Translations under genes and position numbers: made by a program
Notes under the pieces: generated by a model
Seen by the model: the letters and a program-made list of their open reading frames with translations, nothing else
Told to the model about the DNA's origin: nothing
Databases searched by the model: none
NCBI RefSeq assembly: GCF_947166265.1
Contig: NZ_CAMVDO010000010.1
Location: 1 to 64,000 of the forward strand
From: an uncultured Fibrobacter sp.
GTDB lineage: Bacteria; Fibrobacterota; Fibrobacteria; Fibrobacterales; Fibrobacteraceae
Length of the DNA stretch: 64,000 nucleotides
Direction of reading: 5' to 3'
Part shown: one piece after another, positions 2,545-5,093 of the stretch
Numbering within the stretch: position 1 is the first letter of the stretch
How the letters are laid out: every line of letters starts with the position of its first letter

Positions 2545-3387
2545 TTAGGAGCGCGCGAGCACACTCCACCACTCTGTGCTAATTCGTTCTTCTTTGACTT
2601 TGAAGCCGGCTTCTTCGAACCACTTGAGGATATAATCCTTTTCGGTGAGAAGCTGTCCCGAGATAATCAGTTCACCGCCGGCGGCAAGCAGGTCTTCGAT
2701 GTCGTCGCGAAGCGGCCAGAGTTCGCTGCGGATCATGTTGCAGAGAATGACATCGAACTTCGCGCCATCCTTAAACGCATCCAGGAATCCGAGGATGCAG
2801 TCGCTTTCCTTAAAGCCGTTGCGTTCAAAGTTTTCGGCAATGCAGGGGATGGTGAGCGGGTCAATTTCAGTACCGACAGCGAGCTTTGCACCCAAGCGGC
2901 GGGCGTACATCGCGAGAATTCCCGTTCCCGTTCCAATGTCGAGCACCGTCTTGCCGTTGAAATCGACCGATTCCATAAGGGTGGCGCAGCTGCTAGTGGT
3001 ATCGTGTTCGCCAGTACCGAAAGCAGTTTTCGCCTCGAGTTCAAGCACCACGGCCTTCGGGTCGTCGGGAGTAAATTCCACCCAGGGCGGGCGCACCCAC
3101 AGATGCGGAGAAACAGACACGGGCTGGGCACGGTCACGCCACCACTTGTCCCAATCCTTAGCGGGTTCGTCACTCAGCGTAAAATGGTACTGCGGAAATT
3201 CATTTACGATACGGTCTCGTTCGGCCTTGTCACCGGTATAGAAACAGAAGTCCGTGCGGCCCTCTTCTTTCGGATCCAATTCTTCGAGCGTAGCCACACC
3301 TGCCTCGAAAAGCAGGTAGCTCGCGATTTCAAATTCTTCGGCGGGGCAGTAGCCCTCGGCCTTGTACCATGTATCGATTTTTTGCAT
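2545..3387 (-). CDS. prmA: Ribosomal protein L11 methyltransferase
   Basis: SAM-dependent methyltransferase that trimethylates ribosomal protein L11. The 280-residue protein has an N-terminal substrate-recognition part and a C-terminal Rossmann methyltransferase fold. Family hallmarks are GTGEHDTT (124-131), the SAM loop LDIGTGTG (149-156) and the CNMIRSELW segment, a variant of the usual N-I/L-x-x-x-L-like motif IV. The ATG at 3387 is chosen; there is no strong ribosome binding site directly before it. A two-hairpin leader lies immediately upstream (3410-3466). Confidence 0.92.
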   Translation of the reverse strand: MQKIDTWYKAEGYCPAEEFEIASYLLFEAGVATLEELDPKEEGRTDFCFYTGDKAERDRIVNEFPQYHFTLSDEPAKDWDKWWRDRAQPVSVSPHLWVRPPWVEFTPDDPKAVVLELEAKTAFGTGEHDTTSSCATLMESVDFNGKTVLDIGTGTGILAMYARRLGAKLAVGTEIDPLTIPCIAENFERNGFKESDCILGFLDAFKDGAKFDVILCNMIRSELWPLRDDIEDLLAAGGELIISGQLLTEKDYILKWFEEAGFKVKEERISTEWWSVLARS

Positions 3388-3409
3388 AGGCGAAATTTAA
3401 AAAGAAAGA

Positions 3410-3466
3410 GACTCGGCGCTCCCCCGCCGAGCCTCTTACCAAGCGAAAACACCTCTAACGCTTGGT
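3410..3466 (-). promoter_or_regulatory. Two-hairpin leader upstream of prmA (attenuator-like)
   Basis: Read on the minus strand, the first stem is ACCAAGCG / CGCTTGGT (3466-3459 with 3445-3438). A strong GAGGCTCGGCG / CGCCGAGTCTC stem followed by TTTCTTTTT comes next, ending about 20 nt before the prmA ATG. The second element looks like an intrinsic terminator inside the 5' leader. Whether it acts as an attenuator or ends a short RNA cannot be told from sequence. Confidence 0.45.
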
Positions 3467-3566
3467 TTAAGCTCCTTCTTGTAAATAAAGATATACAAGA
3501 AATTTCAAAAAAGTGAGAAAAATCACAAAAAAATTGCTCTAAGTTGGAACATTCCTATTTGGGTGA

Positions 3567-3603: not shown

Positions 3604-4611
3604 ATGATACCCTCCAAGCCGCTTTTTATTCACCAATACCCCGACTGGACCCAATTTCGCTACAATGCACAAAGCGTAATGGAAGCCCTGGGCCAAACGC
3701 GCCTGCAAGAAGGGCGGCTAATCGGTATCGCAGACCTTGCAGATGACCGCCAGACGGAAACGCAGATGCTCGCCCAGGACATCGTCGCAAGCTACGCCCT
3801 GGACGGCTACATGCTCAACCTGGAAACGGTCATCGACGAAATCGAAAAAAGGAACAGCGCCGAAGGCGAAATCCGCAACTGGATAGGCGCGCTTCAAAAC
3901 GCCCGACTCCCCCTTACCGAAGAAAGGCTGTTCGCATGGCATGCCGCCATCGGTCAGAACAAGGTAAAAAGTTTCAGGACAAAGGAAAATTCAGTGGAAA
4001 CCTTTACCGGGGTCGGCGCCGAAAGAATTCCGCTTGAAATGGGACGGTTCCTGAAATGGTTCGAATGTTCCAGCCAGGATGGGGCAATCAAGGCCGCCAT
4101 AGCGCACTTCTGGTTCTTGACTATCCGCCCCTTTGAAGACGGCAACGGCCGCATTGCAAGGGCCCTTTCGACAATGCTCCTTGCACGAAGCGAAAACACG
4201 AGCCGCTCGCTATTCACGCTTAACCTAGAAATTTTCGAACACCGCGAAGAATATCTTGCAATTCTCGCCCGGACCCAATCGGGAAACGGCGACCTTACCG
4301 AATGGATTCTGTGGTTCCTAAGAACCTTGCGGAACGCCATCGAAAAACGCGAAAGGGATCTTGAAGACACCTTCAAGAAAATGAGGTTCATACAAAAGAA
4401 TCAGCAGAAGGACCTCAAAGGTCGCGAACGGAAAATCGTAGAGGCCGTCTGGAATAAAGACCTTCCCGACATATTCTCGGTAAAGGAAATCGCAAGCCTT
4501 ACCGGTACTAGCCACGATTCCGCGCTCCGAGACATCCAGAACCTGATCAAAAAAGGCATCGTCCGCGCCGAAAGCAAGGGCGGTAGAAGCCAGAAATATT
4601 CGCTGGTCTAA
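3604..4611 (+). CDS. Fic family protein (DUF4172-type) with C-terminal winged helix; altered active site
   Basis: 335 residues. The N-terminal part (PDWTQFRYNAQ..., EGRLIG) matches the DUF4172-type extension, the Fic core covers about 100-250, and a C-terminal winged-helix DNA-binding domain follows (SVKEIASLTGTSHDSALRDIQ). Fic enzymes transfer AMP or related groups to a target hydroxyl using the loop HPFx[D/E]GNGR. Here the loop is RPFEDGNGR (175-183), with Arg at the catalytic His position. The segment SYALDG (63-68) aligns with the autoinhibitory [S/T]xxxE[G/N] motif, with Asp for Glu. Catalysis by the standard mechanism therefore looks impaired; the protein may be a regulator or have another chemistry (inference). 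Confidence 0.9.
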   Translation: MIPSKPLFIHQYPDWTQFRYNAQSVMEALGQTRLQEGRLIGIADLADDRQTETQMLAQDIVASYALDGYMLNLETVIDEIEKRNSAEGEIRNWIGALQNARLPLTEERLFAWHAAIGQNKVKSFRTKENSVETFTGVGAERIPLEMGRFLKWFECSSQDGAIKAAIAHFWFLTIRPFEDGNGRIARALSTMLLARSENTSRSLFTLNLEIFEHREEYLAILARTQSGNGDLTEWILWFLRTLRNAIEKRERDLEDTFKKMRFIQKNQQKDLKGRERKIVEAVWNKDLPDIFSVKEIASLTGTSHDSALRDIQNLIKKGIVRAESKGGRSQKYSLV

Positions 4612-4631: not shown

Positions 4632-5093
4632 ATGCACCCGTTAGACGCCAAGGCCCTGATCAAAAAGCTATCCCCCTTTATGGAGGAGGACTCGGAAGTA
4701 TTCCGCGAACTGGTCTCGTTTCTAGGGCAAGGGGCAAAAGTGGATGTGCACCACGGAGATCTTTCCAAGTTCCTCGGACACCGTCGCCTTTACCGAGTCA
4801 TACGCCTCAAAGGCGAAAGCTACAAGGACTGCGTCTATCAGCTAGTGGACAACTACCCCGAATCGATGGATGCGCTCGGAATGTTGCGTTACTACAAGGC
4901 GCCCGCAGGCCCCGTCCGCTGGGAAGAAGTGGAGGCCGCCGAAATCGCGATGGGTAACGAGCTTACCATGGCATCGTACGGATGGATGCCCGACGCCTGG
5001 ACTCTGTTCGAAAGAGGCGGCGACAATACGCAGGACAACGAAAGTGACGAGCACGAACTCGTCGCCATCCTTGCGTTCGATTTAGGGGAATAG
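4632..5093 (+). CDS. Hypothetical protein downstream of Fic
   Basis: 153 residues, not recognised. The product is acidic and soluble, without signal peptide or membrane segment, and has an Asp/Glu-rich tail (DNTQDNESDEHE). It starts 20 nt after the Fic stop on the same strand, so it may be co-transcribed, although a TATACT-like hexamer 6 nt before its ATG could give it its own start. No antitoxin-type motif is visible. Function unknown. Confidence 0.7.
   Translation: MHPLDAKALIKKLSPFMEEDSEVFRELVSFLGQGAKVDVHHGDLSKFLGHRRLYRVIRLKGESYKDCVYQLVDNYPESMDALGMLRYYKAPAGPVRWEEVEAAEIAMGNELTMASYGWMPDAWTLFERGGDNTQDNESDEHELVAILAFDLGE

Follow-up and report, generated by a model that had tools for sequence, protein, structure and literature searches.

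A DUF4172-Fic protein of Fibrobacter without the catalytic histidine is a probable DNA-looping regulator of its own gene and of an aldolase gene

We analyzed a 64,000-nucleotide stretch of genomic DNA (the window) from an uncultured Fibrobacter sp., in which one gene encodes a DUF4172-Fic protein with arginine at the position of the catalytic histidine. The product is likely a dead DUF4172-Fic-wHTH protein that has been repurposed as a DNA-looping transcription regulator of its own gene and of a gene for an aldolase. The gene, its motifs, and the adjacent elements are located in Table 1.

Table 1. Positions in the window of the pseudo-Fic gene, its motifs, its operator-like site, and the neighboring gene
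Feature	Position	Strand	Basis
prmA (ribosomal protein L11 methyltransferase)	2545..3387	-	Pfam PrmA (E 1.1e-48), synteny
Operator-like palindrome TTTCTACGTA-tattt-TGCGTTAAAT, covering the promoter (TATATT) and the start codon	3581..3605	.	Matrix trained on canonical sites
Putative pseudo-Fic regulator gene, 335 aa; DUF4172, Fic, and C-terminal winged helix	3604..4611	+	Pfam, AF2, fold match
Degenerate inhibitory motif SYALDG, residues 63-68; Asp67 for inhibitory Glu	3790..3807	+	Alignment
Fic loop RPFEDGNGR; Arg175 codon CGC (4126-4128) for catalytic His	4126..4152	+	Codon read, clade-wide loss
C-terminal winged helix, residues 273-335, wing GGRS	4420..4608	+	Alignment, model helices
Predicted recognition helix SHDSALRDIQ from residue 303	4510-4551	+	Clade conservation

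Pfam assigned DUF4172 to residues 8 to 82 (E = 9.5e-14) and Fic to residues 103 to 193 (E = 1.8e-15), and with the C-terminal wHTH the protein has the domain order of CbFic2. The AF2 model (pLDDT 93.4, pTM 0.88) adopts the Fic fold and contains the helices of the winged helix; its top Foldseek match in the PDB is CbFic2 (8CIL; E = 1e-20, TMq 0.70), which is the best sequence match as well. In a survey of the Fibrobacterota, protein relatives (E <= 1e-10) are present in 95 of the family's 111 genomes, and most of the 80 genomes of the genus are among these 95. The loci of 111 distinct homologs were compared, comprising 28 canonical genes, 82 genes without His (the pseudo-Fic clade), and one gene, L088, with His plus Asp; the canonical and His-less sets are fully separate.

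The palindrome in the gene's own promoter has the form ACGCA-N5-TGCGT and is the sole match without mismatch when the whole genome is scanned with this pattern; in the upstream alignment of close orthologs, an invariant TTCTACGTATATTTTGCGT element lies against the start codon. Inverted-repeat scans of canonical DUF4172-Fic promoters yielded ATTCnnCGCA-N4/5-TGCGnnGAAT, and an operator matrix trained on the canonical sites and the L088 site detects the site in the window. This matrix also found sites in 37 of 79 promoters of Arg-bearing genes at shuffle p <= 0.01 (100 shuffles each, hence a floor of 0.01), compared with an expectation of less than one, and most strict sites in 927 kb of locus DNA are located upstream of fic starts at a distance of at most about 70 bp. 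In about half of the genes of the clade, no site is recognizable in the gene's own promoter, and many of these genes are tight against prmA.

Other elements flank the gene. The palindrome TCCAAsTTGGAACATTCCAAsTTGGA (window 3537-3564) is found upstream of fic in close orthologs, and at least five further sites occur in this genome, with none for the reversed control; it is probably the operator of another regulator. The inward TTGGAA palindrome at 3539-3562 was rejected as the pseudo-Fic operator, having several other sites in this genome and not being seen in most other promoters of the clade. The prmA gene is the divergent neighbor of pseudo-Fic in most close Fibrobacter loci, and the hairpins between the two genes (CCAAGCG...CGCTTGG, then a GC-rich stem plus a T run; window 3406-3466, minus strand) are conserved in most of the closest orthologous loci and look like a prmA leader attenuator or a small RNA. 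Rfam gave nothing above the gathering score in the region upstream of the pseudo-Fic gene. Directly downstream of fic lies a 153-residue open reading frame (window 4632-5093), which has no Pfam or NCBIfam match and is not conserved at orthologous loci.

The presumed reading surface of the protein is nearly constant. In the pseudo-Fic clade, the recognition helix S303-H304-D305-x-A-L-R309 (SHD[ST]ALRD) and the wing G327-R328-S329-Y332 are about 99% fixed, with S303, H304, D305, R309, G327, R328, and Y332 each at 99%. His304 occurs together with A before CGCA in 64/64 cases in this clade, and A also precedes CGCA in 5/5 half-sites of canonical genes with His304, while the other canonical genes have C at this position in 25 of 32 half-sites. 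For the canonical genes alone, the covariation of residue and base has a Fisher p of 0.0006, to be read with the sequences not being independent. Such protein-DNA covariation fits direct reading of the site by the helix of the Fic protein. A canonical clade with Pro for Asp305 has AATCTTATCA palindromes of the same geometry. Five canonical genes (L107, L108, L111, L114, and L115) combine an xPTA recognition helix with AATCTTATCA...TGATAAGATT-type palindromes 5' of fic, an apparent switch of DNA specificity.

Scanning the genus with the ACGCA-N5-TGCGT pattern gave sites well above the reversed control, among them recurring pairs about 150 to 180 bp apart. The paired sites lie upstream of one constant gene, which encodes a DRE-TIM aldolase (PF00682) whose closest PDB match is 3DXI (a putative aldolase), followed by 4-hydroxy-2-oxovalerate aldolases; in this genome (G000:C5) they are at -297 and -118 relative to the start of the aldolase gene, 179 bp apart. 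With a matrix trained on pseudo-Fic promoters, aldolase loci left out, the pair was found upstream of the aldolase in 75 of 78 clade genomes and at least one site in 77 of 78, compared with 0/18 in genomes without pseudo-Fic (96 regions in total); the 78 include the incomplete bins G037 and G047, where the sites are present and pseudo-Fic was not found. Because the Fisher value of this association (1.4e-18) ignores shared ancestry, the divergent adjacency of the two genes and the base-residue covariation weigh more. In the sister genera g5, g6, and g11, pseudo-Fic and the aldolase gene are divergent neighbors, separated by gaps of 164 to 342 bp, and the pair of sites is located in the common interval. 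One lipoprotein gene lies between the aldolase and pseudo-Fic in G097, and G041 has no sites at the aldolase gene, with the pair near a GH9 gene instead.

A wider regulon comprising GH9, Fib_succ_major lipoprotein, and M6 protease genes was considered and rejected, as these neighbors vary by genome whereas the aldolase is constant. Genomes G043, G045, G069, and G076 each contain 10 to 17 ACGCA-N5-TGCGT palindromes, many of them perfect, near varied genes; these extra sites may reflect a larger regulon or a family of repeats. The repeated hairpin AATCACGCACTTCGTGCGTTAAT of G029, G030, and G038 fits the pattern, yet it is a separate repeat present at many loci.

The center-to-center spacing of the paired sites is quantized. 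It falls into seven clusters with means of 127.8, 148.3, 159.7, 169.8, 180.4, 191.0, and 200.5 bp and none between, besides one outlier pair 52 bp apart in the L088 genome, and the clusters are separated by about one or two helical turns (~10.5 bp). The vector strength near 10.6 bp is 0.88 for all pairs and 0.77 for the 21 distinct spacings, the latter being equalled in 0 of 4,000 random sets. The target gene is preceded by two candidate operators in helical phase, the signature to be expected if both were bridged on the same face of the DNA. The sequence-only reading had suggested a DNA-bound regulator from the winged helix, a proposal now supported by the predicted operator, the target gene, and the helical phasing.

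It is unlikely that a different factor reads the palindromes and that the pseudo-Fic gene is just one of its targets. Other genes, too, have such sites nearby, a few genomes contain large numbers of them, and many pseudo-Fic promoters are devoid of one; however, sites of the same geometry are found at canonical DUF4172-Fic-wHTH promoters phylum-wide, the bases of the sites track the reading residues of the Fic protein itself, and pseudo-Fic is the divergent neighbor of the aldolase in three genera.

The preferred reader of the sites, the pseudo-Fic protein, is most likely a Fic-fold protein that is catalytically dead, as predicted from its residues. Both substitutions first noticed in the single sequence, Arg for the catalytic His in RPFEDGNGR and the altered inhibitory motif SYALDG, were confirmed. 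At position 175, the 82 pseudo-Fic orthologs have 79 Arg, 2 Ser, and 1 Cys, with His in 0/82; Asp occupies position 67 in 80 of 82, and the (S/T)xxxE(G/N) motif of class II Fic proteins, which have an N-terminal inhibitory helix, is not matched. All 28 canonical DUF4172-Fic relatives from this phylum have both His and the inhibitory Glu. Residues of the catalytic site, the flap, and the inhibitory motif that do not vary among the 28 canonical genes are changed or relaxed in the 82: the target-docking flap of the canonical genes, His133 with its MQVVSG/VHYEAP frame, is missing, loss or relaxation also affects Arg202 and Ser207 (the latter being mostly Asn), and the loop itself is relaxed, with Asp179 retained as Asp in 66%, Gly180 replaced by Ala in 56%, and Arg183 kept in 77%. 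The earlier remark that the other loop residues are kept thus applies to the window's close relatives but fails at these three positions across the clade. Pro176, Phe177, Asn181, Gly182, and Arg186 are retained, the last three being nearly invariant, and the positions of DUF4172 helix 1 are retained as well.

These patterns make it quite unlikely that the Arg protein has remained an enzyme whose chemistry has changed (transfer of another nucleotide or group, or hydrolysis) and that DNA binding serves only to place or control it, as in CbFic2. The near-invariant Asn181, Gly182, and Arg186 and an Arg175 that is 96% fixed would suit such an enzyme, and CbFic2 is itself a DNA-regulated enzyme (PMC10628234). 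However, Ser or Cys replaces Arg in three orthologs, so that a catalytic role for Arg175 is unlikely; the loop acid for Mg, Gly180, Arg183, the VHYEAP flap, Arg202, and Ser207 erode; and His and the inhibitory Glu vanish together. The different chemistry envisaged by the sequence-only reading is disfavored because of the residues at site 175 and this erosion.

In a tree built without the motif columns, the 82 His-less genes form one clade (SH-aLRT 92); the clade is recovered with 57 diverse rows, motif columns again omitted (bootstrap 99, SH-aLRT 94), and L088 falls outside it. Judged from these trees, the loss of His is a single clade-wide event, which excludes an assembly error. Nearly every genome of the cellulose-degrading Fibrobacter has the gene, and 14 pairs within the clade have dN/dS values of 0.055 to 0.18, by which the gene is under purifying selection and decay is excluded. 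That it is a decaying remnant, or that Arg is an assembly error, is hardly credible: the catalytic residue is gone and many of the genomes are metagenome bins, but the frame is open in tens of independent assemblies, dN/dS is about 0.1, and Arg is fixed in sequences down to ~40% identity. The view that the changes are not random decay is therefore borne out, and the alignment of orthologs, in which the whole orthologous clade is without His, refutes a strain-specific mutation or error. L088 (genus g5) keeps His, already has Asp67, has Lys for the loop Asp and CCGCA sites of the canonical type, and has the aldolase as its divergent neighbor; the coupling to the aldolase may therefore predate the loss of His, an order that depends on a single long-branch sequence. 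Within Fibrobacter, the gene for the regulator would have been relocated, to a place beside prmA in most close relatives of the window gene, while the sites remained at the aldolase.

The mechanism that we infer begins with direct binding of a dimer, which would read ACGCA-N5-TGCGT via its winged helices (recognition helix S-H-D-[S/T]-A-L-R-D). Occupation of the single site over its own promoter and start codon would result in autoregulation, whereas the two aldolase sites, separated by a whole number of helical turns, would be bridged into a DNA loop controlling the aldolase; the sign of regulation would most likely be repression. The Arg-bearing anion pocket of the Fic domain may have been taken over as a sensor of a small anionic ligand, one that the aldolase perhaps consumes or makes. 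With Asn181, Gly182, and Arg186 alongside the Arg, the pocket looks suited to an anion, so that our foremost guess is a sensor for a metabolite that carries a phosphate or carboxyl group; a pocket formed by these three residues would also be compatible with nucleotide binding without AMP transfer, as was suggested initially. Tentatively, the clade may represent a family of Fic-derived, ligand-responsive regulators in which the sensor pocket, on binding an aldolase-related acid or a nucleotide, opens or closes the phased loop over the aldolase promoter.

HTH-Fic proteins are widespread. Regulators of the NrtR type fuse an enzyme-like Nudix domain to a wHTH, and their ligand is known; the pseudo-Fic protein as proposed here would likewise combine a former enzyme domain as sensor with DNA binding, but with a Fic instead of a Nudix fold. 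Looping repressors of the LacI/DeoR type use two operators in helical phase at one promoter, an operator phasing like that described above, although the protein families are unrelated. CbFic2 of Coxiella burnetii, which shares the DUF4172-Fic-wHTH order and is the best match by sequence and fold, reportedly binds DNA and dimerizes via DUF4172 helix 1, and is an AMP transferase and remover whose activity is regulated by DNA binding (PMC10628234). It keeps HPFDDGNGR and TSAIEG and is active, whereas the pseudo-Fic clade has lost His and the inhibitory Glu; for pseudo-Fic, in turn, the genome sequence itself points to a specific candidate operator and a target gene. CccR, from Yersinia pseudotuberculosis, resembles pseudo-Fic in combining Fic and HTH with a palindrome in its own promoter, exerting negative autoregulation at palindromes near the -35/-10 boxes, but it is an active, T6SS-delivered AMP transferase with His-dependent toxicity (PMC9755527). 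In contrast, pseudo-Fic is without His, is chromosomal in nearly the whole genus, and has phased site pairs at a metabolic gene. Bartonella Fic domains including BepC, with a departed signature motif and a non-enzymatic role (PMC8401265), are another case of a non-canonical Fic domain kept for such a role; they are host-targeted effectors without a wHTH, however, and BepC retains the motif His (H146). In the literature searched, no description of a His-less DUF4172-Fic regulator was found.

If this reading is correct, an enzyme was discarded lineage-wide across the genus, while its ability to recognize DNA was retained and directed to a metabolic target, which would show a route from post-translational modifier to transcription factor. 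The operator, the reading code, the phased pair, and the intermediate (His kept, Glu already Asp, aldolase already adjacent) render every step directly testable. In addition, the palindrome provides a candidate specific DNA site for DUF4172-Fic-wHTH proteins, active ones included.
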